DNA of 37,096 nt from a virus (IMGVR_UViG_3300044982_000070:1-37096), one strand, 5' to 3'; shown: positions 8,852 through 37,096, counted from the first letter of the stretch. Program-made: numbers and translations. Notes: a model not told the origin generated them from the sequence alone.

Positions 8852-9263
8852 AAATAATTTTATTTTCGATTTAACAGACTTTAGCAAAAATTACAGAGGT
8901 GTCTTATTTGCTGAGGTCGATAATGAAGAAATGGACAATCTATGGAATTCTATTTTTGGGACTTCAAAGAGATATGTAGCTGGAGTGATGGCTGTGATTT
9001 GGACAGATAAAGATAACAAATGGTTTGCTAAGATGAGAATTAAATTTCCGTCAGGAAGCAAACACGTAGTGAGTTTTGACTTTAGCACTCCTGAATACGA
9101 AAAAATAAATGTAAACGAAACTTTTATCTTACAATATCTATACCAGATGCCAATGGTTAATAAAATATGGACACCTAATCCTTCTGGAGACGGGATAGGA
9201 ATAGTTGAGATTATGGAAAAACTAGATATGATTGAATCAAAAAGATATTCCGTAATAGAATGA
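8844..9263 (+). CDS. Unknown protein
   Basis: Encodes 139 residues of mixed composition (MDKNNFIFDLTDFSKNYRGV). The middle is beta-rich (GVMAVIWTDKDNKWFAKMRI). It overlaps DUF3310 by 8 bp. I recognise no motif or fold. Confidence 0.6.
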   Translation: MDKNNFIFDLTDFSKNYRGVLFAEVDNEEMDNLWNSIFGTSKRYVAGVMAVIWTDKDNKWFAKMRIKFPSGSKHVVSFDFSTPEYEKINVNETFILQYLYQMPMVNKIWTPNPSGDGIGIVEIMEKLDMIESKRYSVIE

Positions 9264-9284
9264 AATTATCAAAAAGGATGAAAA

Positions 9285-9602
9285 ATGAATTTATTCAAAA
9301 AATTAGTTTTACTTACGGTCTTGCTGTGTTCATCAGCATTTGCACAACAAAGCGAAAGCATGGAAAGAATTGGCATTGGATGCCGTGTTCTTTTATCGCC
9401 TACTGAGTACATTATCCAAAATGAAGATGTATACATAAAAAATTCAACATTACATGAAATTTGCTCAGAGCTATCACTTCAAGATTTTGACGCTTGGGAA
9501 ATTATAGATTACCACATATTCATTTATATAGAATGTCCAGAGTGTCACGCAGCTCATCTCATCGACCATGCATGTCCAAATTGCAAAGTTCATAGGGCTT
9601 AA
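9285..9602 (+). CDS. Secreted protein with C-terminal zinc ribbon
   Basis: Encodes 105 residues. Residues 1-20 (KKLVLLTVLLCSSAFAQ) form a classical signal peptide with an AFA-Q cleavage site, so the product is probably exported to the periplasm. The C-terminus has CPEC and CPNC about 14 residues apart, a likely structural zinc ribbon. AAGGATG lies upstream. It is the last gene before the terminator at 9610. Its role, perhaps in envelope interaction or exclusion, is unknown. Confidence 0.65.
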   Translation: MNLFKKLVLLTVLLCSSAFAQQSESMERIGIGCRVLLSPTEYIIQNEDVYIKNSTLHEICSELSLQDFDAWEIIDYHIFIYIECPECHAAHLIDHACPNCKVHRA

Positions 9603-10004: not shown

Positions 10005-10045
10005 GATTAATCCTTTGTTTGCTGCCTGTACGGCAGTGAATTCAC

Positions 10046-10249: not shown

Positions 10250-10344
10250 GATTCACCCTTTTTTTGTTAATGTGTACTTTTGCTAGCTCAAGCCTACTCG
10301 CGCATTTTAACGAGGCTCTAGGCGAACTTTGCTTTTATGAACCT

Positions 10345-14607: not shown

Positions 14608-14823
14608 ATGAAAGAACATCATGGACATAAAAAACACAGTCATCATCCTCACGATAAAGTAGCAGCAATGCCTCAATTCCATGAGGGTCATTGGGAAAAG
14701 AAAATGTCCGACACAGACGTAGCAGATGGAAAGTATTCAAGCGAGATGAATCAAGCTGAAGAATACAAAAAGTCTGTCGACGGATTGGCTAATTATGCCA
14801 AGAAACATAAAGAAAAGCATTAA
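14608..14823 (+). CDS. Small His-rich protein
   Basis: Encodes 71 residues. The first 17 contain seven His (MKEHHGHKKHSHHPHDK) and the last residues are KKHKEKH. AGGAG lies 6 bp upstream. A metal-binding or nucleic-acid-neutralising role is plausible from composition alone. Located between portal and scaffold, it may be a minor virion or assembly protein. Confidence 0.6.
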   Translation: MKEHHGHKKHSHHPHDKVAAMPQFHEGHWEKKMSDTDVADGKYSSEMNQAEEYKKSVDGLANYAKKHKEKH

Positions 14824-18856: not shown

Positions 18857-18894
18857 AAGCGATTATCGAATTGATTTGTAATTAAAAAAAATAT

Positions 18895-18974
18895 TTGATA
18901 AAGTGAAGAAAGCGATATATGGTCGGCCTCGCTAGCCGACTCCCTGGCTGAATGCACGCCTCGCCAACGTAAGA
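18895..18974 (+). promoter_or_regulatory. Capsid promoter and structured leader
   Basis: TTGATA (18895-18900), 17 bp, TATGGT (18918-18923). GTCGGC-7-GCCGAC (18922-18940) is a perfect 6-bp inverted repeat. CCCTGGCTG, TCGCC and CGTAAGA follow. The same series of blocks, with the same spacing from TTGATA to ATG, stands before the gene at 30095. The inverted repeat overlaps the predicted start point, so it may act as a DNA operator as well as RNA structure. A further gtttc/gaaac hairpin lies at 18983-19001. Confidence 0.6.
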
Positions 18975-19026
18975 CTGAATAGGTTTCGTCAACCGAGAAA
19001 CAATTTCACTTACACGAGGAAAAATT

Positions 19027-19995
19027 ATGTCATTCTCTACAGGGATTACAGGCATTCAGAACATGGCTCCGGAATTGCCCGTCCAAGCTTCTGAAGACCT
19101 ACTTTCCACTCCAATGTTTAATTTGATTCACTCTTTTGGCGTTGATTTACACCATGCTGAAAGCTATGTGGGTAAAACAACTCGTATGTCTCGTTTCGAG
19201 CGTCTTTCTACTGAAGGCGGTCAACTTGATGGCTCAGGCATTGACCCAGCGTCAGAAGTTCCAGTTCGTACCGATATTGACGCTACTATGGAAATCTACG
19301 CTAAATCAATAGTAACTAACGAACAAGTAGTATTATGGGAGAATAGCAAAACATTAACTAAGTTTACAGCTTTACTTGGCCAATGGTTAAGGGAGAAGGA
19401 AGATTTATTAATGAGGGATTTATTCTCTAGTTCAGTTAGTTATCTAAACGCCACTGGGGGCCTAAACGCGGACCAGCCGTCAAATATTTCTTTGAACGAT
19501 GTAAACAACATAGAAAATATTTTACTTGGCAATGATGCTCGCTCGATGCTCACCAACTTGGAGGCCACCCTAAAATTCGCGACTGGTGGAGTTCGAGATG
19601 CTTTTATTGCACTTGCAAATACTAATTTGGCTGCTGATCTTCAAAAAGTCCAAGGCGTGCTTCTAAAATCAGCATATCCGACACAAGAAGGCATTAGGCC
19701 AGAAGAGTATTGCTCCATTTCAAGATTCCGTTTCTTTGTTAGCTCTAAGGCTGCAAGAACTCCTGGGATCTCACTAAAAGGAAATACTATCTATACCATC
19801 CCAATGTACGGCTTAGAATCTGCTGCGAAAATCGAGCAGAATAACTTCACAGCAGTCATAGGATATCGTCCTCCATGGGTAGTTTCTTCTGTAGCTCAGA
19901 ACAGCCAGTTATATGCCAAGTTTGCGATTGCAAGAGCTATCACAAATCAAAACTGGATCTCTGGTTTGAACGTAACAACATTCCAACCTTCATAG
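19027..19995 (+). CDS. Major capsid protein (N4-gp56-like)
   Basis: Encodes 322 residues. Features typical of N4-gp56-type coat proteins: FGVDLHHAESYVGKTTRMSR near the N-terminus, LSTEGGQLDGSG with the acidic repeat after it, an IYAKSIVTNEQVVLWEN spine-helix region, and a C-terminal domain (YGLESAAKIEQNNFTAVIGY). It forms the HK97-fold icosahedral shell. It has its own promoter-leader and is first in the structural operon. Family call by pattern and position. Confidence 0.8.
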   Translation: MSFSTGITGIQNMAPELPVQASEDLLSTPMFNLIHSFGVDLHHAESYVGKTTRMSRFERLSTEGGQLDGSGIDPASEVPVRTDIDATMEIYAKSIVTNEQVVLWENSKTLTKFTALLGQWLREKEDLLMRDLFSSSVSYLNATGGLNADQPSNISLNDVNNIENILLGNDARSMLTNLEATLKFATGGVRDAFIALANTNLAADLQKVQGVLLKSAYPTQEGIRPEEYCSISRFRFFVSSKAARTPGISLKGNTIYTIPMYGLESAAKIEQNNFTAVIGYRPPWVVSSVAQNSQLYAKFAIARAITNQNWISGLNVTTFQPS

Positions 19996-20004
19996 GAGGA
20001 TCCC

Positions 20005-21042
20005 ATGGCTTTTACTATTGTTACACAAGGTACTTTTAAGCAGCCGTCAACTGCTGTTAACCAAATTATACCACTTCCAAGTGGTGCTGATTATTTTGTC
20101 ACGACTAACCTAACAAAAATGGCTCTTGCTTCAACAACAGGTTGTGTGAGGGGCGAATGGTATGGGGGTGGTTTAACTGCTAATAATGATGGTCTTAAAT
20201 GGTCGAAATCCTCCGGAGATGCGATTTCTATTGAATCGTTTGCTAATGGGAGTGCAAATGGCTTTACATATGTAACCGGTTTTCCGCCTCCTCAAGCTGC
20301 TTTAACCGGCACTACCATTACTAATGCTAATCCCGCTGTTGCTTCTGTAACAAACACTTATTCTGAGGGGGATACGGTTGTTATTTATAATGCAGTCGGA
20401 ATGCAGCAAATCAGTGGAATGACATTTACAATCTCTAGCGTTTCAGGGTCAGGATTTACCCTCTTAGGCTTAAATGCGTCAGGTTTCTCTGCAGGAGCGA
20501 CATCATTTCAGGTTCGAAGAGTTAATCAATTCACACCAGTTGAACCTAGCTTCCTGTTTGTTACTGCTGTTACTCAGGCTGTTCAAGCTCAAGTAACAGT
20601 TTCTCAAGCAAACAGTGTTTATTTAGGACAAAAATTTGAATTTACCGTGCCAGCATCTTTTGGAATGGTTCAATTAAATAACTTCTACCAGCCTCAAAAC
20701 TTGCCTGTTGTTGTTACTTCAATCGTGGATGCTTATAACTTCACGATCAACCTTAATACAACAAACTATACGGCATTTGCATTTCCAGCAAGTAGTGGAT
20801 CTCCTACGACTCAACTATTTGCAACGATTGCCCCAGCCGGTCAATCTACTCAATTTAATCCCATCACAGGAGTTCAAACTGGGTACAATTTTAATCAGAT
20901 TCCATTCCATACAGGAATTTTCATCCCATATATGTATTTGCCAACAGGAGTAAATTCTCCCGCTGGACAGGCGAATGAAACGATTGTATGGCAAGCCTAC
21001 AAAATGGAAACAGGAACGATCAACGCACCTGTTCCTAGCTAA
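20005..21042 (+). CDS. Beta-rich capsid-associated protein with two FCCH-like modules
   Basis: Encodes 345 residues in the position of a head-decoration protein. Residues about 117-170 (EGDTVVIYNAVGMQQISG, FTISSVSGSGFTLLGL) form a module of the type often annotated in phages as ubiquitin-activating E1 FCCH-like. A second diverged copy lies at about 208-265, with VTSIVDAYNFTINL. The C-terminal half resembles the separate protein at 21127, suggesting duplication. AGGAG lies upstream, and a terminator pair follows at 21046-21114. Confidence 0.6.
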   Translation: MAFTIVTQGTFKQPSTAVNQIIPLPSGADYFVTTNLTKMALASTTGCVRGEWYGGGLTANNDGLKWSKSSGDAISIESFANGSANGFTYVTGFPPPQAALTGTTITNANPAVASVTNTYSEGDTVVIYNAVGMQQISGMTFTISSVSGSGFTLLGLNASGFSAGATSFQVRRVNQFTPVEPSFLFVTAVTQAVQAQVTVSQANSVYLGQKFEFTVPASFGMVQLNNFYQPQNLPVVVTSIVDAYNFTINLNTTNYTAFAFPASSGSPTTQLFATIAPAGQSTQFNPITGVQTGYNFNQIPFHTGIFIPYMYLPTGVNSPAGQANETIVWQAYKMETGTINAPVPS

Positions 21043-21045
21043 TGC

Positions 21046-21080
21046 TAGAATCATTTTTCTGACGTCGGGAAAATGATCTA
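21046..21080 (+). other. Stem-loop before the terminator
   Basis: TAGA-A-TCATTTT-T-C pairs with GAAAATGATCTA, a 12-bp arm with two bulged bases, loop TGACGTCGG. It stands between the stop at 21042 and the perfect terminator 6 bp beyond it. It may protect the capsid mRNA end. Confidence 0.45.
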
Positions 21081-21085
21081 CAAAC

Positions 21086-21117
21086 GAGTAGGGACGATGT
21101 GTCCCTACTCTTTTATT
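21086..21117 (+). terminator. Strong rho-independent terminator after capsid genes
   Basis: GAGTAGGGAC and GTCCCTACTC form a perfect 10-bp stem with a 5-base loop (GATGT) followed by TTTTATT. It ends the capsid plus decoration transcription unit. A downstream gene starts 10 bp later, so read-through must supply the tail genes unless another promoter exists. Confidence 0.88.
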
Positions 21118-21126
21118 AAGGAAACG

Positions 21127-21516
21127 ATGGCTAATAACTATTTACCGCCAGTGATTCAAATACCAAGCTCTTTGCTGATCACAGCGATCACGCAATCTAC
21201 CCCTATGATTATTACTGTACAAATAGGCAATCCAACTACAGAAGCAAATACTTATATCCCTGGCATGAATGTCAAGTTATTAGTTCCAATAACATATGGA
21301 ATGTATCAGGCTAATGGACTTATAGGAACTATTCTATCTATTGACGGATCAAATTTTACACTATCTCTTGATTCTAGCGGATTTGATGCTTTTGTTATTC
21401 CCTCTGGAAATGTCGAACAGCCAGCTTCTATCGCTCCAGCAGGTTCAAAAAATTTAGAATATAATAATCAAACGGATCAAGTTCCGTTCCAATCACTAAA
21501 CAACATAGGAAATTAA
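21127..21516 (+). CDS. Short paralog of the capsid-associated protein
   Basis: Encodes 129 residues. It resembles the C-terminal half of the protein at 20005: ITAITQ versus VTAVTQ, TYGMYQANG versus SFGMVQLNN, LSIDGSNFTLSLDSSGF versus TSIVDAYNFTINL, ASIAPAGS versus ATIAPAGQ. It therefore carries one FCCH-like module (residues about 47-96). AAGGAAACG before 21127 selects this ATG, since the longer frame from 21073 would run through the terminator. Probably a head or tail accessory protein. Confidence 0.6.
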   Translation: MANNYLPPVIQIPSSLLITAITQSTPMIITVQIGNPTTEANTYIPGMNVKLLVPITYGMYQANGLIGTILSIDGSNFTLSLDSSGFDAFVIPSGNVEQPASIAPAGSKNLEYNNQTDQVPFQSLNNIGN

Positions 21517-21518
21517 CA

Positions 21519-21956
21519 ATGAACAAAAAACAGATAACTCTATGCACCGCAGGCGGTGAAATGCACGGTCTAATCAACACTTTAACGAATTGTGTCCCGT
21601 TTGATGAGTTTAAACATTTCAAACCAGAACACAAAAAAGAGATGGAAGCCCAGAAGAAAGAAAACGCAAAAGTAGTAAAAGCCGAGTATCTCAATTCGAG
21701 AGGCAAACATGAGCGTCTAACAAAACCTTTTTGCCTCGGATCTGGAGAGCCAATTGAAATTTGGCATTTTATTCCTGGAAAAACATACGAAGTGCCTTTA
21801 GGTCTTGTCAAAGAGGTAAATGATAAAAATAAAGTTATTCCAAAAAGAAGTGGCCTCGTAAGTGTGGACGGTGAAAATGTTCAGCGCACTGGAGCACCTA
21901 TTGAAGATGATCAAGAGGGAGAATGGCTTCACAAATTTGTTGCAGCAGGGTTTTAA
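21519..21956 (+). CDS. Unknown structural-region protein
   Basis: Encodes 145 residues (MNKKQITLCTAGGEMHGLIN), basic helical centre, then a beta-rich part (GKTYEVPLGLVKEVNDKNKV). It lies between the decoration-like and gp4-like genes, where small connector or head-completion proteins usually occur. No recognised family. Confidence 0.55.
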   Translation: MNKKQITLCTAGGEMHGLINTLTNCVPFDEFKHFKPEHKKEMEAQKKENAKVVKAEYLNSRGKHERLTKPFCLGSGEPIEIWHFIPGKTYEVPLGLVKEVNDKNKVIPKRSGLVSVDGENVQRTGAPIEDDQEGEWLHKFVAAGF

Positions 21957-21971
21957 TTAAAGAGGTAATAA

Positions 21972-23387
21972 ATGACTCCGGTTGTTCAGGCTGATTCGAC
22001 CTATACTCAAATAGAAAAAAAAGTTAGGCGTTTGACTGCATCGGCAAGTTCTGCTGCTTTAAGCAGCCTCGACATTCAACAAGCTGTTAATACTTTTTAT
22101 AATAATGATTTTCCATATTCGATAAAAATAGATCAGCAGCGAAGTGTTTATAAATTCCTGACAATTCCAAACGTTGACCGTTATCCAGTGGATGTCAACA
22201 ATTGTCAGGGATTTAGAGCTCCTGTTTATTTTGAAGGAATTCAAGGAAACTTCTTTAAAAATAGAGATCAACTTTATAATTTGTACCCTAGATATCCAAC
22301 GCAATTTCAACAGGGAGCTGGATTAGGAGGAAATATAACTGCTATTCTTCAACCATCTAATCCAACACAAATAACATCTCCAAATAACGACTTACGCACA
22401 GGCTCAATTATAACAATTGAGAATGTTGGGGGAATGATTGAGTTAAATGGCAATTCTTATACGGTTACAGTTATAGATTCAGATAATTTTACGCTTAATG
22501 GTGTTGATAATACTAGTTTTACTCCTTATACCTCCGGCGGAACTTGGACTTCGAATAATACTTTTTCTTTCTCTCTTTTTGGCAATAATGTTAATCCATT
22601 TCCTCAACCTAACTTTGGAATATTAAGCACGCAGGTAGTAATTGGAGGAATAGATCAAAATGGAAATCCAATTAGAGTTATTGATGATGGTGGAGCTACT
22701 GTAAGCTCTTTTGGCATAGGAAACAATAGCACTTTTGGTCAATTGCTTTTTATTCAACAAAATACTGTTGGTAACAATGTTTATCTAGATTCAACCAATA
22801 CTCAACAACCTGCAATTCCAGTCCTTTCCCCATTGGGAGGTCAAGTTAATGCTAATTCGAATCCACCACCACCTCCATCATCATATAAAACATATCCACC
22901 CACTACTTTAACTCCTCAATATTGTGGAACGGTAAATTATGTTACCACGCAAATAAATTTTTTGATTCCTGTGCCTATACAAGCCGGATCCAATCTTAAC
23001 ATATGGGTTGCTACTTATCAAGTTGGACGACCTTATAACCTATTATTTTGGAATAATGAGTTTACAATTCGTCCTGTGCCAGATAACGTCTATCTTGTTG
23101 AGGTTGAGACATTTATGACTCCAACTCAATTTATGATGTCTACTGATCACCCTATTCTAAATCAGTGGGCGCAATACATTGCTTATGGGGCTGCAATGGA
23201 GATTTTACGAGATAGGCAAGATATGGAAGGAGTACAAAACCTCATGGAGGGCTTTAAACGCCAAGAAGCCATGGTTTTAGAACGCCAAGCCGTAGAAGAA
23301 ATTCAGCAACCAAATATTACTCTATTCAATAGTACCAATTATGGAAATTGCTCAGGTGGTGGATGGGGTATAGGGCAGGGATTTTAA
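21972..23387 (+). CDS. Tail accessory / head-tail connector protein (gp4-like)
   Basis: Encodes 471 residues. The N-terminal 100 residues (IEKKVRRLTASASSAALSSL, then DIQQAVNTFYNNDFP) resemble connector proteins next to the tail hub in P22-type gene order. An FCCH-like module is inserted at about 135-190 (GSIITIENVGGMIELNG, SDNFTLNGVDNTSF). The C-terminal part (ILNQWAQYIAYGAAMEILRD) is the helical core typical of the family. RBS AAAGAGG. The stop overlaps the next start. Confidence 0.65.
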   Translation: MTPVVQADSTYTQIEKKVRRLTASASSAALSSLDIQQAVNTFYNNDFPYSIKIDQQRSVYKFLTIPNVDRYPVDVNNCQGFRAPVYFEGIQGNFFKNRDQLYNLYPRYPTQFQQGAGLGGNITAILQPSNPTQITSPNNDLRTGSIITIENVGGMIELNGNSYTVTVIDSDNFTLNGVDNTSFTPYTSGGTWTSNNTFSFSLFGNNVNPFPQPNFGILSTQVVIGGIDQNGNPIRVIDDGGATVSSFGIGNNSTFGQLLFIQQNTVGNNVYLDSTNTQQPAIPVLSPLGGQVNANSNPPPPPSSYKTYPPTTLTPQYCGTVNYVTTQINFLIPVPIQAGSNLNIWVATYQVGRPYNLLFWNNEFTIRPVPDNVYLVEVETFMTPTQFMMSTDHPILNQWAQYIAYGAAMEILRDRQDMEGVQNLMEGFKRQEAMVLERQAVEEIQQPNITLFNSTNYGNCSGGGWGIGQGF

Positions 23388-25729
23388 TGGCAGGATATTC
23401 ACCTTTAAAAATCACAGGGATGCAAACAGGTTTAGTCCAAAACAGGGAAAACTTCTTATTGCCGGATGATGCCTATCCTATTTTGCAAAATGCTTACGTA
23501 TGGCGTGAACGCATTAAAAGAAAGAAAGGTTTCCAGCTACTTGGCAGACTTCAAAGAAATATAGGAACAACAAACGGATCTGGGAATGCGACTATAACAA
23601 TTTCTCCTCAACCGATACAACCTGGTATTGCATCATTTATAGTCGGAACAAATCTATTTAATGATCCTGATCCTACAGGCGCAACTAACCCCATTAATCT
23701 GTTGTCCAGTGGGCCTGGAACTGCAACGCTGAATCGCACAACGGGGGTCTTAACAATAACTGGATCTAATGCCACAACAGCAGTTCAATATTTCCCTGGA
23801 CTGCCAGTAATGGGTATTAGAACAAGAGAACTTCAAGATAGCGCAAACGATCAGACAATATTTTTCGATCAAGATTATGCATATATTTATAATGGAACAA
23901 CCATGCAATTTCAGGAGTTCATTCCTGGAACCACATGGAATGCGGCTGGAGAAGACGTTACTGGAACCAATTTTTTTTGGTCAACAAATTACTGGGTCAG
24001 TGATGGTGTAAATTTTACAACTTCTGGAATTAAGTTATTTTGGGAAACAAATGGAAGTGGTACTTCTGGTGTTACTGCAGATCCACCAAGAATTACAGAT
24101 GGAACAACATGGTTAAATTTTTATAATGATACATTACCAGCTACTAATTCTCCTTGGGCACAAATAGATGCAGGGCCAACATGGCTAACTAACTGGCTTT
24201 GCAATCTTCCCTTTAGGGGAAGGATGGTGGTTTTTAATACATGGGAAGGAATTAGTGCAACAAGTGCGCAAAATTTTTCTAATAGAATCAGATGGTCAAC
24301 TATAGGAAACCCTTTTATCGCCTTTGCTGCAGGTCCGCCGGCAAAAGGATCGTGGAGGGATGATATAAGAGGACAAGGAGGATTTCTTGATATTCCTACT
24401 TCTGAAGATATTGTTTCAATCGGTTTTGTTAGGGATAACTTGGTTATTTATTGTGAGCGTTCAACTTGGCAGTTACGCTATACGGGTCGCTCAATTGCCC
24501 CTTTTCAAATTGAGAGAATTAATAGTGAGCTTGGTTCAGAAGGGACATTTTCAGCCATTCAATTTGACACATCATTGGTGGGAATAGGGGATAAGGGAAT
24601 AGTAGAATGTGACAGTTATAAATCTGAAAGGATGGATATCAAGATTCCTGATTTTGTTTATCAATTCAATTCTTTAAATAATGGAGTTTCTAGAGTTCAT
24701 GGTATTAGAGATTTCCCTAACCGCTTAGCATATTGGACTATTCCGTTAGTTGCTTATTATCCAAACATAGGAAATTCAAAATGGATATTCCCGACAGCAA
24801 GGCTAGTTTACAACTATGAAAATGATTCATGGGCGATTTTTAATGATTCATTAACGACATTAGGAACTTTTCAACTTCAAAGCAGTCCTAACTGGTTGCA
24901 AATCACACAAACTTGGCAACAATATGAACAAACATGGCTAGATGATGACGTTGAAGATGCGCTTATTGTTGCCGGAAATCAGCAAGGTTTTATTGAACAA
25001 CTAGATCAAGATACTGTGAATGATGTTAGTCTGTTTATTTCCAATATTGTCACTTCCGGTGGGAATGCTACAATTATCACAAGTCCAAATCATAACATGC
25101 AAGATGGTTTTGTTATTGGAATTAGTGGAATTTTGGCGACTACTCCTGGATCAGATCTTAATGCAGGAATTTATGCCATCTCGGTTGTTGACCAAAATAC
25201 TTTCACACTTAATTCATTTAATTCTGTTAATAATCAATTTAATCTTCCTGTCATTTCTACAATCACAGGAACTTATGTAGGTGGAGGATTAATCAACATC
25301 CGCGAAAATTTTTATGTCACTAGCAAGAAATTTAACTTTTTGGATGAAGGTCAAAATATTCAAATGGGTTATTTGGACATATTAATGGATGCAATTGCTA
25401 ATGGAGCCATTTCATTAAACGTTTATTTAAACTATGACGATGTTACACCTTCAAATACTTTATACAATAATCAGATCTTTGGAGTGACACCAGAAACTCC
25501 AGATACTTTTTTTAATACTATAGTGCCTACTTCCCCATCAGAATTTGCTGTAGCTCCTCAAGGAACTAAGTTTTGGCAACGAGTTTTTTGTCCAACTAGA
25601 GCTAACTTTATAACACTTCAATATACATTTTCGAATGCGCAAATGGCTGGAACAGAGCAACAACTAGAAGTGCAAATTGATGCTCAAATTTTATGGATTA
25701 GAAAAGCAGGACGAATTACTCAATTTTAG
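23387..25729 (+). CDS. Tail hub / stabilisation protein (P22 gp10-like)
   Basis: Encodes 780 residues, the largest protein here. Start MAGYSPLKITGMQTGLVQNR and motifs such as RGRMVVFNTWEG, IRWSTIGNP and LVIYCERSTWQLRYTG fit the beta-propeller-like tail hub of podoviruses. The mid-C-terminal part carries another FCCH-like module (FVIGISGILATTPG, SVVDQNTFTLNSFN). It would close the portal-connector channel and hold the tail needle or fibres. The ATG at 23387 overlaps the previous stop. AGGG is upstream. Confidence 0.72.
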   Translation: MAGYSPLKITGMQTGLVQNRENFLLPDDAYPILQNAYVWRERIKRKKGFQLLGRLQRNIGTTNGSGNATITISPQPIQPGIASFIVGTNLFNDPDPTGATNPINLLSSGPGTATLNRTTGVLTITGSNATTAVQYFPGLPVMGIRTRELQDSANDQTIFFDQDYAYIYNGTTMQFQEFIPGTTWNAAGEDVTGTNFFWSTNYWVSDGVNFTTSGIKLFWETNGSGTSGVTADPPRITDGTTWLNFYNDTLPATNSPWAQIDAGPTWLTNWLCNLPFRGRMVVFNTWEGISATSAQNFSNRIRWSTIGNPFIAFAAGPPAKGSWRDDIRGQGGFLDIPTSEDIVSIGFVRDNLVIYCERSTWQLRYTGRSIAPFQIERINSELGSEGTFSAIQFDTSLVGIGDKGIVECDSYKSERMDIKIPDFVYQFNSLNNGVSRVHGIRDFPNRLAYWTIPLVAYYPNIGNSKWIFPTARLVYNYENDSWAIFNDSLTTLGTFQLQSSPNWLQITQTWQQYEQTWLDDDVEDALIVAGNQQGFIEQLDQDTVNDVSLFISNIVTSGGNATIITSPNHNMQDGFVIGISGILATTPGSDLNAGIYAISVVDQNTFTLNSFNSVNNQFNLPVISTITGTYVGGGLINIRENFYVTSKKFNFLDEGQNIQMGYLDILMDAIANGAISLNVYLNYDDVTPSNTLYNNQIFGVTPETPDTFFNTIVPTSPSEFAVAPQGTKFWQRVFCPTRANFITLQYTFSNAQMAGTEQQLEVQIDAQILWIRKAGRITQF

Positions 25730-25737
25730 GAGAGAAT

Positions 25738-26349
25738 ATGCCTTATCAACCTGGAATTCCAACTGGTTCAGTTCCATTAAACCAAGACTATTTAAATATT
25801 CAGGGTAACTTTTCGTCTTTAAATAGTCAGTTTAATGTCGATCATGTCCCATTGACAAATACATCAGGAAGTCCTCCCAACGGATATCATACAGCATTAC
25901 ATTTAGTTCCTCAAAGTTCGGTGACTGCAACACCAGGTTACGGCAATCTTTATGCCAAAACAAATAATGATGGAATAAGTACTTCGCAACAATTGTTTTA
26001 TCAATTTGTAAATTCAACTCCATCGACGATTAATGTCCCCTTAACTCGAAATTTTGCTCCTATAGTAACAGGTAATGGGGCTACTTTTCTGCCAGGGGGT
26101 TTAATTTTACAATATGGAAAAAAAACGAGTCCTGGGAATAAGGGCCAGATCACATTTCCGATTGCATTTCCTGGAGGTCCTCCATTTATGATTCAATTAA
26201 CCCTTTTAAGAGATTCAGGTAACCAAAGTCTTTCAGTAGATGATGGAACTGCAAGTGGATCAAATCCAGCACCATCAGCGACGAAATTTGGTTATCTTTC
26301 TTCAAGTGCAGGATCAACAGCAATATATTGGATGGCGATAGGTATATGA
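25738..26349 (+). CDS. Tail fibre protein with gp53-like C-terminal domain
   Basis: Encodes 203 residues. A short N-terminal attachment part (PGIPTGSVPLNQDYLNIQGN) is followed by a C-terminal beta domain (GGLILQYGKKTSPGNKGQIT, ITFPIAFPGGPPFMIQL, ending IYWMAIGI). The ending fits the gp53-like C-terminal domain of tail fibres, involved in host recognition. AGGAGA lies upstream. An ATGA overlap joins the next gene. Confidence 0.7.
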   Translation: MPYQPGIPTGSVPLNQDYLNIQGNFSSLNSQFNVDHVPLTNTSGSPPNGYHTALHLVPQSSVTATPGYGNLYAKTNNDGISTSQQLFYQFVNSTPSTINVPLTRNFAPIVTGNGATFLPGGLILQYGKKTSPGNKGQITFPIAFPGGPPFMIQLTLLRDSGNQSLSVDDGTASGSNPAPSATKFGYLSSSAGSTAIYWMAIGI

Positions 26350-26834
26350 CAATTCCAATCGATAGTCAAAATTTAGAAAGTTATGTTCCAGTTTATGATG
26401 TAGCTCCCGATGATCCAAAAGATTTGAGAGCTTTCATAGTGGAACAATTTAAAAGATTAGCTAACGCTGTGAACGTTAGGGAGATAGGTTTTTTCTTAGA
26501 TCAGGAATTACTGTCTGGAAAATCGTTTATTCCAGGGTTGAATATTGCAGCAGAAGGTGGATCATCACAGCAATTTCGTACAATTTTGCGAAAAGTGATT
26601 ACTTTTCCTGGATTAACAATAGGTGTCAATACTCAACCACATGGAATTACTGTTGATGCAAATTTTAGTTTGATACAGCTTTTTGGAGCAGCAACCAATG
26701 CAACAGCATTAACCGGCGAACCAATACCCAATGGCACAGATACAATAAGTTATACGTCGACAAATATTATTATTACTGTGGCTGCTGCTTATACAAGAGC
26801 TTGGGCAGTGATTGAATACATACAGGAACTATAG
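26346..26834 (+). CDS. Small tail-associated protein
   Basis: Encodes 162 residues. The N-terminus (MTIPIDSQNLESYVPVYDVA, then DLRAFIVEQFKRLANAVNVR) could attach to the hub. The second half is beta-rich (TQPHGITVDANFSLIQLFGA and an ending of AWAVIEYIQEL). Its position directly behind the fibre gene suggests a tail or fibre accessory. Unrecognised otherwise. The ATG lies in an ATGA overlap. Confidence 0.55.
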   Translation: MTIPIDSQNLESYVPVYDVAPDDPKDLRAFIVEQFKRLANAVNVREIGFFLDQELLSGKSFIPGLNIAAEGGSSQQFRTILRKVITFPGLTIGVNTQPHGITVDANFSLIQLFGAATNATALTGEPIPNGTDTISYTSTNIIITVAAAYTRAWAVIEYIQEL

Positions 26835-26842
26835 GAGGCTAT

Positions 26843-27526
26843 ATGGGGGGATTAAGTTTGGGCTGGCTTGGATTAGCACCGAAAAAATGGAACAAAAAAG
26901 CTAGCGAATTTATTACGGGAACTCCTGGGAAAATTAATCAAGTTTCTAATTTACGACCAGATCAAGAGGAATTGTCTAATCAATTGGTTCAAGCAGGACA
27001 GCAAGAAGGTGCCGGTGGCGCGTTCGGAACTGCTGCTGATTATTATCGTAATTTATTAAGCGATGATAGTGCGGACTTTAATGCATTTGCCGCTCCTCAA
27101 TTGAGGCAATATAATGAAGATATTGTTCCAGGAATTTCGGAGCAGTTTGCTGGAATGGGATCTGGAGGATTAAGTAGCTCAGGATTTAGAAATGCTCAAG
27201 TCCAAGGTGGTGTTGATCTTTCCGAAAGATTAGGAGCTATTAGAGCTAATTTAAGACAGGCAGGCGCACAAGGATTAAGTAATATAGGGCAGTTAGGACT
27301 ACAAAACTTCCAGCAAAATTATGAGCAGCCTGGCACAGAAGGCTTTTTATCATCTGTAGCTCCAGCAGTTGGCACGGCCGTAGGAACGGCAGTAGGGGGG
27401 CCAATTGGAGGAGCCATAGGTGGTGGTGTAGGTAGTTGGTTTGGAGGAAAAGGTAACAAAGTGGGCGCAAATACAAGTCCTTATGGCAATGGAAGTCCTC
27501 AAGCCAACCCACAAATAAGGGGGTAA
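26843..27526 (+). CDS. Candidate ejection (internal virion) protein 1
   Basis: Encodes 227 residues. A polar Gln/Ala/Gly-rich helical body precedes a strongly hydrophobic Gly/Ala region near 175-205 (VGTAVGTAVGGPIGGAIGGG) that could insert into a membrane. This composition and the position after the tail hub match the P22-type ejection protein cluster (gp7, gp20, gp16), which leaves the head with DNA to form a channel. AGGAGG lies upstream. No sequence-level identification. Confidence 0.55.
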   Translation: MGGLSLGWLGLAPKKWNKKASEFITGTPGKINQVSNLRPDQEELSNQLVQAGQQEGAGGAFGTAADYYRNLLSDDSADFNAFAAPQLRQYNEDIVPGISEQFAGMGSGGLSSSGFRNAQVQGGVDLSERLGAIRANLRQAGAQGLSNIGQLGLQNFQQNYEQPGTEGFLSSVAPAVGTAVGTAVGGPIGGAIGGGVGSWFGGKGNKVGANTSPYGNGSPQANPQIRG

Positions 27527-27528
27527 TA

Positions 27529-28827
27529 ATGTCTAAAAGTGGAATTAATCGAACAATCAATATTGAACAACCGAGTATTTTTGGACGGGTTGGAACTGGA
27601 CTAGGAAGAGGAATCTCTGAATCTTTACCGAAGGAAATCGAAAGAGGCAGACTAGCTGCTGGGTTGAAAGAATTGGGTGAACAAAAAGATCTAAGTCCTT
27701 TTCAGCAATTTGCTGGTTTAGCTGCCACGCCGGGAATAACACCCCAAATGATAGAAAGTGGAACAAATCTATTAAGACAGCAAGCAATTATAAACAGCAC
27801 GAATCAAGGAAATCAACCAGCAGCTCCTACGCAACCGTTTAATGTGTTTGATGAACGTGGGAATGGTACCCCTTCAGCAACAACTACAGCAAGCACTGAA
27901 GCCGCTTTAAATCCTTATATTCCGCCTTCTGGTCCTGAACAAGAGCAATTAGCTAGAAAATTGATGGCAGCAGAACCTCAAGTTTATCCTAATATAGAAT
28001 CTGCAAGGCAGGCAGTAGCAAATCAAATCAATGGTAATATTCAACAATCGAATGCAAAATTAGGCAAAAGAGAGCTTGAAGAAGCTGTCCAAAACACAGC
28101 GGAAGGAAAATTAAAGAATGAGATAGCGACTGTTGGAGCAACTTTGCCGGGGACATTACTTAGCCGACTACAACAGGATGCAGTCGATGATGTAACAAGT
28201 AAAAAATTATCTCCTGACCAAGCTAAAGTCAAATACGGAAAAGAAGCCGATGCTATATCCAAATCTTTTGCCAACATTCGTTCATGGGGAGGTATGGGAT
28301 TAATTTTGAATAGTCCTAAGGAACTATTAAGTTCAATTAAAGGGCTTCAACAAGATGCTAGGCAACAGAAATTTCAGAAAGAAGCAGCAGATTCAATGAT
28401 AGCCGAAAATAATGTTACTCCTCAATTTGCCTACGCAACTATGTATCCTGTTAGCGATATAAAACCATTAAATGACGAATTAAAAAATCTTCCAAATATT
28501 AAACCTAAGTTAGAAAAAGTACCAGGAATACCAGGACTTGCCGGTATTGGATTTGGAGCAGGAAAAAATAAAGATCAAAAAAAATTAAGCATGAATGTTT
28601 TCCCGAGATTAGCAAAAGCAATGGGACTGGAAGGTAGTCCTTTATCTATAGCCTATGAATTAGATCAAAAAGGTTATGATTCCCAAGGATGGAAAGACTA
28701 TCTGCTAGATGAAAATAATGGATTAAATCTTTCGACTCATCAGAGAGACGAATTAAAAAAACCACAGCCAGGGTTTTTTGGATGGTTAAATGATTGGTGG
28801 CTAAAATCTTTTTCCGGAGTGAAGTAA
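27529..28827 (+). CDS. Candidate ejection (internal virion) protein 2
   Basis: Encodes 432 residues, starting 2 bp after the previous stop. Helical and rich in Ala/Gln/Leu, with Gln/Pro-rich linker regions (GNQPAAPTQPF) and long amphipathic stretches (ELEEAVQNTAEGKLKNEIAT). No signal peptide. Size and position fit the middle one of three ejection proteins. The C-terminus (GFFGWLNDWWLKSF) is aromatic and may bind membrane. Confidence 0.5.
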   Translation: MSKSGINRTINIEQPSIFGRVGTGLGRGISESLPKEIERGRLAAGLKELGEQKDLSPFQQFAGLAATPGITPQMIESGTNLLRQQAIINSTNQGNQPAAPTQPFNVFDERGNGTPSATTTASTEAALNPYIPPSGPEQEQLARKLMAAEPQVYPNIESARQAVANQINGNIQQSNAKLGKRELEEAVQNTAEGKLKNEIATVGATLPGTLLSRLQQDAVDDVTSKKLSPDQAKVKYGKEADAISKSFANIRSWGGMGLILNSPKELLSSIKGLQQDARQQKFQKEAADSMIAENNVTPQFAYATMYPVSDIKPLNDELKNLPNIKPKLEKVPGIPGLAGIGFGAGKNKDQKKLSMNVFPRLAKAMGLEGSPLSIAYELDQKGYDSQGWKDYLLDENNGLNLSTHQRDELKKPQPGFFGWLNDWWLKSFSGVK

Positions 28828-28828
28828 A

Positions 28829-29473
28829 ATGCAACCTTATCATAAAGCAGCAGAAGCGATTAGATCAGGACAGGAAACCCCTCTTCACTTATTAAAACAT
28901 GCTGGTTTAACCGCACTCGGAGGTGGAATAGCAAGTGCAGGAAGCAAAGCATTGGGCAAATTAATTCCCGCAGTCGGATCTTTAATAAATAAATATGTGC
29001 CTGATGATCTTTTGCAAAAAGGACTAAGCAAGATAGATCCCAGATTCGGGAAGTTTATTCAAGGAGCTATTGATGAGGGATATTCATCTGATGAAATTAG
29101 GGAATTTTTAGGAGACAAGGTTGAAAAATCGCAAGAGCCTAAAGATCATCGAAATATTATTGAGCAACATTCTCCAGAATTAAATTCTTTTCTTTCTGAA
29201 AAAATTAAAGCAGGAGAAGATCCGATAAGAGCGGCAGCTCTTGCTCTTTTTGAAAATGGGAATCCATTTGAGCCTACTATTCGTAAAATAGAGAAAGAAC
29301 ATAAAACTAACTGGTCTCAATTAGTTCAATCGATTTATGGAGGAGGACAAGGCGCACCACAACAACCACAACAAGAAGCACCTCAACCAATGCAACAACC
29401 GCAAAGCCAAGGACAAGGTGCACAAGCATTTCAAGCAATTTTACAGAAAATTAATCAGAAGTTAGGTGGTTAA
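28829..29473 (+). CDS. Candidate ejection (internal virion) protein 3
   Basis: Encodes 214 residues. A Gly/Ala amphipathic N-terminus (LTALGGGIASAGSKALGKLI) is followed by two helical domains and a Gln/Pro-rich tail (QGAPQQPQQEAPQPMQQPQ). The start is 1 bp after the previous stop, and the stop shares an A with the next ATG. Membrane-active helix plus flexible tail fits ejection proteins. No catalytic lysozyme motif is seen. Confidence 0.5.
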   Translation: MQPYHKAAEAIRSGQETPLHLLKHAGLTALGGGIASAGSKALGKLIPAVGSLINKYVPDDLLQKGLSKIDPRFGKFIQGAIDEGYSSDEIREFLGDKVEKSQEPKDHRNIIEQHSPELNSFLSEKIKAGEDPIRAAALALFENGNPFEPTIRKIEKEHKTNWSQLVQSIYGGGQGAPQQPQQEAPQPMQQPQSQGQGAQAFQAILQKINQKLGG

Positions 29474-29961
29474 TGGAGTTAGAAGAGCTAGAAGAGCTAG
29501 AAGAATTGATGAAGGATCTGCTTCAAGCTATTCAATTAATGATTGAATCCGGTGAAGAAATGTCGGATGAACTGCAAGGTGCAGTCGCTCAAACATTGGA
29601 ATTGCTTTATAATCGCATCGAAGCATTAAGAGGCTCCGCTCCACCAGAACCTCCAGAAGAACCGCCAGACTTGCAACCATCCATGCCATCAAGCAATGTC
29701 GAAGGCTTTGCTTATGACGATAAATCTGGAAGAATGTATGTCCGCTTTCTTGGAAAACATCCAAATAGAAATGGTCCAATCTATCAATACGAAAATGTTC
29801 CCCCAAACATTTTTGAAATCTTTAGCAAAGGCGCAATACCTGCTAAAACAGATGGCAAAAATAAATGGGGAAGTTGGTGGAAGGGTAAATATCCAAGCAT
29901 GGGAGCTGCTATGTACCACCTAATTCGCGCTGGTGGTTTCCCATTTCAAAGAGTTGCTTAA
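29473..29961 (+). CDS. KTSC-domain protein with coiled-coil N-terminus
   Basis: Encodes 162 residues. The N-terminus repeats ELEELEELEEL, encoded by three 9-bp units (GAGYTAGAA) at 29476-29502, and forms a coiled coil. A Pro-rich linker (PPEPPEEPPDLQPSMPS) leads to a KTSC-like domain from about residue 75: GFAYDDKSGRMYVRFLG, then YQYENVPPNIFEIFSKG. KTSC domains are small folds seen in phage and bacterial proteins, of uncertain role. It closes the ejection-protein run. Confidence 0.68.
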   Translation: MELEELEELEELMKDLLQAIQLMIESGEEMSDELQGAVAQTLELLYNRIEALRGSAPPEPPEEPPDLQPSMPSSNVEGFAYDDKSGRMYVRFLGKHPNRNGPIYQYENVPPNIFEIFSKGAIPAKTDGKNKWGSWWKGKYPSMGAAMYHLIRAGGFPFQRVA

Positions 29962-29986
29962 ATTCTATAGCTTTTAAAATAATTAA

Positions 29987-30057
29987 TTGATAAATTTAGA
30001 TTAGCGAAAAATGAGGGTCGCGCCCTTGGCTGTATACGAGATCGCCTCCGTAAAAAG
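29987..30057 (+). promoter_or_regulatory. Fibre-operon promoter and leader, copy of capsid leader
   Basis: TTGATA (29987-29992), 17 bp, AATGAG (30010-30015), then GGTCG, CCCTTGGCTG, TCGCC and CGTAAAA. Matching blocks occur before the capsid gene in the same order, while the bases between differ. AGGG/CCCT forms a small stem in place of the capsid inverted repeat. It opens the 133-bp gap before 30095. The rest of that gap holds an AT-rich imperfect palindrome and GGAGG. Confidence 0.6.
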
Positions 30058-30094
30058 TATATTAAAACCTTTTTAAATATGCTATGGAGGCATT

Positions 30095-30877
30095 ATGACC
30101 GCAGCTTTAGGAAATACCGCTCAAGGAACCCCATTCGCGACAGGGGTCGACGCTTTTGTTTATCCTCAATTTCTTGGTACTCCACTGCGAGCACCAACAA
30201 CTCAAGACATCTATAATCCAGGCACGCGCTGGCAAGACAATAGTGTAAATCCTGCAGTTCAATATTACACTATCGGTGCTGGAATTTGGTACGAAATACC
30301 TAATACATCATTCGGTGTTTCATCTATTACAGGGACTGCTAATCAGATTCTCGCAACACCAAATGTCGGATCGGTAGTTCTTTCTTTGATCGGGCCTTAT
30401 ACACCTGCTACCTACACAGCCCATGGGGTTTTAATTGGTGAAGGAACAGGATCGATTGTAGCTACTGCTACAGGAAGTGCTGGACAATTTCTAGTGTCCA
30501 ATGGTTCTTCTGCTGACCCTACGTTTCAAACAGCAACCCCCCAGTTAACAGTTACTCCTGTGGCAGGAACAAGCCAAGCGATGGTAGTAAACACTAACTA
30601 CATAGCAAATGCAGTAGGACAAACCACATTTACGTTACCTACTACTGCAGCTGTAGGAAGCATAATCAGCATAGTAGGAAGTGCGCTAAATACAGGGGGA
30701 TGGAAAGTAACGTATACCACCGGTCAAATTATTTGGGGGCCAGCTGGATCTTCTACTGTCACGACAGGAAATGCGTCTTCAGCAGCAGCAGCAGCTCAAT
30801 GTATGAAAATTATGTGCGTTGTAGCCAACACGACATGGGTAATACAAGACAACAGCGGAACTATCACATTAACCTAG
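30095..30877 (+). CDS. Tail fibre or receptor-binding protein
   Basis: Encodes 260 residues. Low-complexity Thr/Ala/Gly beta sequence (GNTAQGTPFATGVDAF, LIGEGTGSIVATATGSAG, NASSAAAAAQCMKIMC) typical of trimeric fibres. The N-terminal YPQFLGTPLRAPTTQDIYNP is probably the attachment segment. GGAGG lies 6 bp upstream. First gene behind the duplicated leader, and probably made in step with the capsid. No named family. Confidence 0.6.
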   Translation: MTAALGNTAQGTPFATGVDAFVYPQFLGTPLRAPTTQDIYNPGTRWQDNSVNPAVQYYTIGAGIWYEIPNTSFGVSSITGTANQILATPNVGSVVLSLIGPYTPATYTAHGVLIGEGTGSIVATATGSAGQFLVSNGSSADPTFQTATPQLTVTPVAGTSQAMVVNTNYIANAVGQTTFTLPTTAAVGSIISIVGSALNTGGWKVTYTTGQIIWGPAGSSTVTTGNASSAAAAAQCMKIMCVVANTTWVIQDNSGTITLT

Positions 30878-36990: not shown

Positions 36991-37096
36991 ATTAGCAAAA
37001 AGATAGACGCAAAAACAAAGGTAGACGCTAAACGTCATAATAAGACAAACAGCAGACTTCCACATCTGGAGAAACTAGAAACCAGGAAAAAGCATC
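36991..37096. repeat. Iteron array, putative replication origin (right part)
   Basis: Positions 37084-37096 read AGGAAAAAGCATC, the same core as the repeats at the start of the window, and they are preceded by AGAAACTA, which also precedes the copies at 13 and 58. Positions 36991-37010 (ATTAGCAAAAAGATAGACGC) are the inverted partner, 17 of 19 bases, of 121-139. A second TAGACGC lies at 37022-37028. The array therefore appears to continue from the last base to the first, which suggests a circular molecule opened inside the origin. Confidence 0.65.

Follow-up and report, generated by a model that had tools for sequence, protein, structure and literature searches.

Genomic context

The timing of late genes in tailed phages is usually attributed to late promoters, sigma factors or antiterminators. 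The window analysed here, a complete stretch of 37,096 bases that constitutes one virus record, raises the question of what two similar leaders in front of unrelated genes have in common and how such leaders might control the genes that follow. The shared blocks that the initial annotation had marked at 18895-18974 and 29987-30057 are present at these positions. The gene order of the record is podovirus-like, with terminase, portal, two conserved proteins, the gene at 19027, tail genes, fibre genes and RecE/RecT-type genes on the opposite strand. The genes that stand behind the two leaders are as follows.

19027..19995, + strand: major capsid protein of the N4-gp56 family, 322 aa (NCBIfam TIGR04387, 65.1 bits against a curated cut-off of 60)
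30095..30877, + strand: tail-fibre-type gene with a conserved N-terminal anchor ('ATGVDAFVYPQF') and a variable remainder

The identity of the capsid gene is based on the NCBIfam match. Approximately residues 1-67 of the product at 30095 are common to the fibre-type genes of many relatives, which are divergent after this point. Longer versions of this gene in two relatives match tail-fibre PHROGs, and the product encoded in the window itself gave no match to PHROGs. Judged from their products, the capsid and fibre genes are probably late genes. Two small proteins encoded at 14608 and 14902 (both 71 aa) are conserved in all 18 full-length loci; they matched no family and are not notably basic. 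No relative of the window phage was found in the annotated phage collection, and the phage family is uncultured and known from metagenomes. The sole genome match was one contig in an uncultured Bacteroidetes bin, and Bacteroidetes were not accepted as the host because the phage genes have promoters that resemble those of sigma-70 as well as clear SD sequences.

A module shared by the capsid and fibre leaders

The likeness of the two leaders is far beyond chance. Their pairwise local alignment score is 55, compared with 27 ± 6 for shuffled sequences, and 2 of 3000 shuffles reach 55. Relatives were collected from IMG/VR, which supplied 80 capsid loci, out of 230 capsid relatives that one scan had found, and 60 fibre loci. 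Two covariance models were built, R1 from the module in the capsid leaders of 23 relatives, with the window excluded, and R2 from the fibre leaders of 12 relatives only. These reciprocal models return exactly the two leader positions. R1 detects 18906-18973 (E 3e-17) and 29998-30054 (E 6.9e-4), with the next best site at E 0.69, and R2 detects 29998-30054 (E 1e-14) and 18906-18973 (E 0.0016), with the next best at E 1.6; the E-values are rough, and both models give the same ranking. The blocks are conserved in relatives, and the relatives and covariance searches together exclude a pair of chance matches.

Among the 31 records searched whole, 22 contain the module, in two copies in 13, in one copy in nine, and in more than two copies in none; some records are fragments and some have divergent leaders below the threshold, so that a record in which a single copy was seen may have another. 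A motif-only scan of IMG/VR, with no condition on neighbouring genes, returned 68 stretches. The matches with AT-rich flanks of the module type precede a capsid or fibre-type gene, and the remaining matches lie inside unrelated, mostly GC-rich coding sequence. The fibre loci of several relatives are without the module, which is common at this gene and not universal.

Promoters and predicted transcript starts

A promoter had been placed at TTGATA-17-TATGG, which is the wrong register: TTGATA belongs to an extended -10 element, and the TTG of the -35 element lies 17 nt further upstream. The predicted promoters are as follows.

18876..18904, + strand: capsid promoter, with -35 TTGTAA at 18876-18881, a spacer of 17 nt and extended -10 TTGA-TAAAGT (-10 at 18899-18904)
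29968..29996, + strand: fibre promoter, with a weak -35 TAGCTT and extended -10 TTGA-TAAATT (-10 at 29991-29996)

Scored with a consensus from the capsid leaders of 46 relatives, the capsid promoter is the best site in the window (22.8, compared with 16.2 for the next), and the fibre promoter scores 11.1 and ranks eleventh in the window promoter scan. The signal conserved in the 46 relatives is TTGnnA, a 17-nt spacer (36/46) and TTGATAnATT; the sites were chosen by a TTG at a suitable distance, and the TTG itself is not independent evidence. Of the 14 fibre leaders examined, 13 were matched by the search expression, and in 12 of these NAGC follows the -10 element after a step of nine bases, which is also the commonest step in capsid leaders. 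Because the distance between the -10 element and AGC is fixed, transcripts are predicted to start at or beside AGC (18911 and 30003), which would make the module the 5' end of the RNA.

Hairpins of the module

18911..18973, + strand: capsid leader module, with AGC at approximately +1, H1, GGCTG and H2; matched by R1 and R2
18921..18941, + strand: H1 of the capsid leader, GGTCGGC-CTCGCTA-GCCGACT, with a stem that covaries in relatives
18956..18970, + strand: H2 of the capsid leader, ACG-CCTCGCCAA-CGT, with 3 bp here
18982..18994, + strand: H3 of capsid leaders of types A and C, GGT-TTCGTCA-ACC
30003..30052, + strand: fibre leader module, with AGC, H1 (AGGG-TCGCG-CCCT, 30014-30026), GGCTG (30028-30032) and H2 (TACG...CGTA, 30035-30052)

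Both leaders contain H1, with a variable stem and a UCG loop, followed by GGCTG and H2, which also has a UCG loop. The homologous parts of the two copies are AGC, the UCGC loop, GGCTG, the UCGCC loop and CGTA. Two blocks listed by the initial annotation as common parts do not correspond to each other structurally: GGTCG is in the stem in the capsid copy and in the loop in the fibre copy, and CCCT is linker in the former and stem in the latter. Its observation that a different stem occupies the same place in each copy was correct, and this stem covaries in relatives. The pairing of H1 is 0.86 in capsid leaders and 0.65 when the arms are swapped between leaders; the corresponding values for fibre leaders are 0.89 and 0.62, and in both groups 0 of 2000 swaps reach the observed value. 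The longest run was picked as the register in capsid leaders, which favours pairing, and this was not so for fibre leaders. The H3 stem also pairs well (0.85 versus 0.47 ± 0.04 swapped). A UCG is present in the H3 loop in 44/44 leaders, but it served as the search anchor and is therefore not independent evidence.

The H2 stem of most relatives is TACG/CGTA. Type B capsid leaders keep H2 and have lost its UCG loop (CCTCTTTAA). In the window capsid leader, RNAfold did not choose H2, even in prefixes of the growing transcript. In types A and C, pairing of the 5' strand with the H1 loop scores 0.78 versus 0.64 swapped (0/5000), which suggests a possible pseudoknot; there are few variants, and it was omitted from the model. 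The window also has TGGCGA and AGGCGA complements of the UCGCC loop, none of which stands out as a trans-acting RNA.

Pairing that buries the SD sequence

The downstream half of the leaders, which is absent from the initial annotation, contains a helix that competes with H2.

18959..19019, + strand: SD-burying pairing of the capsid leader, consisting of P4 and a loop-SD pairing; predicted SD exposure 0.0018
30044..30091, + strand: SD-burying helix of the fibre leader, GCCTCCGTA (30044-30052) with TATGGAGGC (30083-30091); predicted SD exposure 0.0001

In P4 of the capsid leader, GTAAG (18969-18973) pairs with CTTAC (19009-19013), and the SD, CGAGG (19015-19019), pairs with CCTCG (18959-18963). 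In the fibre leader, TATGGAGGC contains the SD. The conflict lies in a single strand: CGTA, which forms the 3' side of H2, also serves as the 5' side of the helix ending at the SD.

Both pairings of this strand are above their swapped controls. Across 49 different sequences of the shared strand, the mean score is 11.27 for H2, versus 9.80 ± 0.24 swapped (best of 1000 swaps, 10.67), and 13.39 for P4, versus 11.04 ± 0.31 (best swap, 12.35); these scores come from a local search for the best helix in which the swaps were given equal freedom, and sequence kinship is not modelled. A first P4 test with mixed registers, in which the fibre group was not above the swaps, was superseded by the 49-strand test. 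The SD-proximal part alone covaries weakly in type A (207/5000 swaps reach the observed value) and clearly in type B (2/5000). All three strands are replaced together in relatives, for example in the capsid leaders of L077, L079, L080 and type C and in the fibre leaders of L107 and L198. The compensation is ACAC/GTGT with AGTGTT/AACACT in L077 and CACGC/GCGTG with GTGGG/CCCAT in L080, and the compensated fibre helices are CCGTAA/TTACGG in L107 and TTCGTAAAA/TTTTGCGAA in L198. The commonest type B strand (CCTCTTTAAC) had also been considered as a boxA; this reading was dropped because the type B strand varies together with the SD side.

Predicted SD exposure in capsid leaders has a median of 0.0004 (67 leaders), compared with 0.40 in a set of 229 other genes from these phages (p 3e-31), and shuffled leaders give 0.24 in a sample of 23 capsid leaders. 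Fibre leaders give 0.21 (13 leaders; p 4e-4); those outside the window bury the SD less (exposure of approximately 0.2) than the window fibre leader does. As in switches that sequester the SD, the SD is paired in the predicted ground state and this pairing is conserved in relatives, and a competing conserved pairing (H2), which would free the SD strand, has one strand in common with P4.

A proposed two-state translation switch

The initial annotation had suggested a shared regulator site or an RNA element controlling late genes. An RNA element is supported because the module is located at the predicted 5' end of the transcript, its stems covary, and the second stem conflicts with the SD-burying pairing. 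A shared regulator site, if understood as a DNA operator, is not supported, because the conservation tracks the RNA hairpins.

Our preferred reading, which we hold with modest confidence, is a bistable translational switch common to the capsid and fibre mRNAs and opened by a putative factor that holds the UCG hairpins. Each stretch would be the 5' end of an mRNA leader, and the two leaders would have one cis-acting RNA element in common. RNA beginning at or beside AGC would fold into H1 and H2, and also H3 in most capsid leaders, with UCG loops and a GGCTG joint. The 3' strand of H2 could alternatively pair just upstream of the SD or overlapping it, which would bury the ribosome site. H2 would thus be formed and the SD free to open in state 1, and H2 would be broken and the SD buried in state 2. 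A trans-acting factor that recognises the UCG hairpins, or the timing of the nascent chain, may hold H2, and H2 held in this way would switch on the capsid and fibre operons together.

The structure and the competition of pairings are well supported by comparison and computation, and from them we infer the factor, the direction of control and the timing. An opener is proposed because a gene that needs high expression is predicted to have its SD buried in the ground state. A factor acting on both mRNAs is proposed because H1-GGCTG-H2 is the shared promoter-proximal part and H2 competes with burial of the SD. Recognition of the same loop in all leaders is excluded by the type B leaders, in which H2 has no UCG loop. 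No RNA-binding family was found among the window ORFs scanned, and these gave no candidate regulator. When the SD is simply held open in the predicted capsid fold, P4 is retained, and therefore formation of H2 is not strictly required to free the SD. Furthermore, the SD could also be paired with CCTCG in the loop of H2, so that formation of H2 need not equal a free SD. Other points that weigh against the switch are the three-pair H2 of the window capsid leader, which RNAfold does not choose, the greater exposure of the SD in fibre leaders outside the window, and the fibre loci that are without the module.

A stronger form of this proposal, which we regard as tentative and somewhat doubtful, is a dedicated phage RNA regulon: one trans-acting factor would recognise the tandem UCG hairpins at the 5' ends of exactly two mRNAs, for the capsid and the receptor-binding fibre, and open the ribosome sites of both together. 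If this were true, structural genes on host-type promoters would be timed by translation and not by a late promoter. More generally, if capsid and fibre translation were coupled by a conserved leader, this uncultured phage family would have a different solution to late timing, and the competition between the two pairings gives clear predictions for simple reporter assays.

Alternative explanations

The main and serious rival, which we consider unlikely, is an antitermination RNA of the put type. According to this explanation, a two-hairpin 5' module of approximately 65 nt binds RNA polymerase and carries it past the terminators of a long structural operon, and the SD-burying helix is a separate matter. 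HK022 putL and putR are also two copies of approximately 70 nt with two stem-loops at promoter-proximal positions (PMC9378689), and the module here, which likewise has two hairpins and at most two copies, is located at +1 of the predicted transcript. In nearly all relatives examined, the second gene of the capsid operon is followed by a strong hairpin, in many cases with a T-rich tail. However, the best match of R1 on the HK022 genome (E 0.13) is not significant, and the compensated pairing of the H2 3' strand with the SD region in both leaders is left unexplained.

Autogenous control, in which the UCG hairpins would act as a translational operator for the capsid protein or some other virion protein and its binding would lower synthesis, is quite improbable. 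The element is found on virion genes only, and an invariant loop on variable stems is the usual appearance of a protein operator, but the predicted ground state is already closed, which fits an opener better than a repressor. Slightly less credible still is access to the SD set by temperature, RNase III cleavage or folding kinetics alone, as in lambda cIII and T4 gene e. SD-burying alternatives that work without a dedicated phage regulator are known (PMC4166951; PMC3014915), but a switch free of any trans-acting factor leaves the conserved UCG loops and GGCTG unexplained, as well as the retention of the same 5' module on two unrelated genes. Although two copies in one genome could reflect a recent duplication, chance likeness or a functionless inherited duplication is extremely improbable and already refuted by the covariation tests, since the stems are wholly different yet paired, both copies persist in diverged genomes, and the flanks are unrelated.

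Comparison with known systems

At gathering thresholds, Rfam 15 (4227 families) gave no match at either window leader or at the capsid leaders of seven relatives, and a permissive Rfam search with the capsid leader gave only a 7.2-bit match to rli33 (E 6.5). Searches of the open-access literature, read in targeted passages, did not turn up any such element described for N4-gp56 phages.

In HK022, putL is placed just downstream of its promoter (PMC9378689). The number of copies per phage, the length of approximately 70 nt, the two stem-loops and the promoter-proximal position are features that the put sites share with the present module, whereas put works in early transcription, and no pairing of it with an SD has been described.

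ANTAR targets likewise consist of two hairpins in tandem with conserved loops, and one hairpin of the pair is in competition with a regulatory helix. Their loops are hexanucleotides with A1 and G4, and the competitor is a terminator (PMC3369931). In the present leaders, UCG recurs in loops drawn with 7-9 nt (shorter in H1 of the window fibre leader), and the competitor buries the SD. The ANTAR loop rule does not hold for H3, in which position 1 is T in 31, C in 9, A in 2 and G in 2 leaders (7-nt frame), and no ANTAR domain was found in the subset of window ORFs compared with Pfam.

In T4 e, soc, 49 and I-TevI, as here, the SD is buried in a leader helix that times the translation of a phage gene. 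The late promoters of T4 gene e lie inside the structure, and late RNAs thereby escape the SD hairpin (PMC3014915). In contrast, the predicted promoters here are upstream of the whole structure, and there is a second, competing hairpin.

The lambda cIII mRNA has two mutually exclusive leader structures in a temperature-dependent equilibrium (PMC4166951) and is similar as a phage leader whose exclusive conformations open or occlude the ribosome site. Whereas cIII is an early regulator with one copy of its leader, the present element stands on two structural genes and includes a conserved 5' domain of UCG hairpins. It is not assignable as a member of the lambda cIII, T4 SD-hairpin or ANTAR classes and looks like an undescribed translation switch.

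Other features of the sequence

Within the capsid operon, a strong hairpin region comes directly after the second gene:
21050-21115, strong hairpin with a T-rich tail
Two hairpins are present there, and nearly all relatives examined also carry a strong hairpin at the equivalent position, but a different one. The element could be a terminator, a partial terminator, or a 3′ stabiliser.

In one relative (L007, a locus fetched from IMG/VR), the capsid gene is preceded, at a distance of approximately 700 nt, by a match to the int-alpA RNA family (RF02996, 38.6 bits) at positions 9231-9293.

The intergenic sequence GCCTACTCGCGCATTTTAACGAGGC (window 10270-10330) loosely resembles the type B capsid leaders, which keep hairpin H2 without its UCG loop. 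Because this segment was absent from the matches of both R1 and R2, the covariance models of the leader module built from relatives' capsid and fibre leaders, respectively, in searches up to E 10, the likeness is probably due to chance.

Two repeats lie at the record ends, possibly reflecting an assembly or genome-end feature:
13-43 and 75-105, exact direct repeat of 31 nt, left end
117-138 and 36993-37014, inverted repeat of 22 nt (95%), one arm per end

An intergenic gap of the window contains a CRISPR repeat:
10014-10041 (-), one copy of a type I-F repeat (Rfam CRISPR-DR4, 37.1 bits)
The repeat stands single, with no array around it, and no exact copy of its 20-nt core was found among the 209 loci fetched. 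We regard it as a candidate member of the RNA anti-CRISPR (Racr) class of solitary repeat units (PMC10651486).
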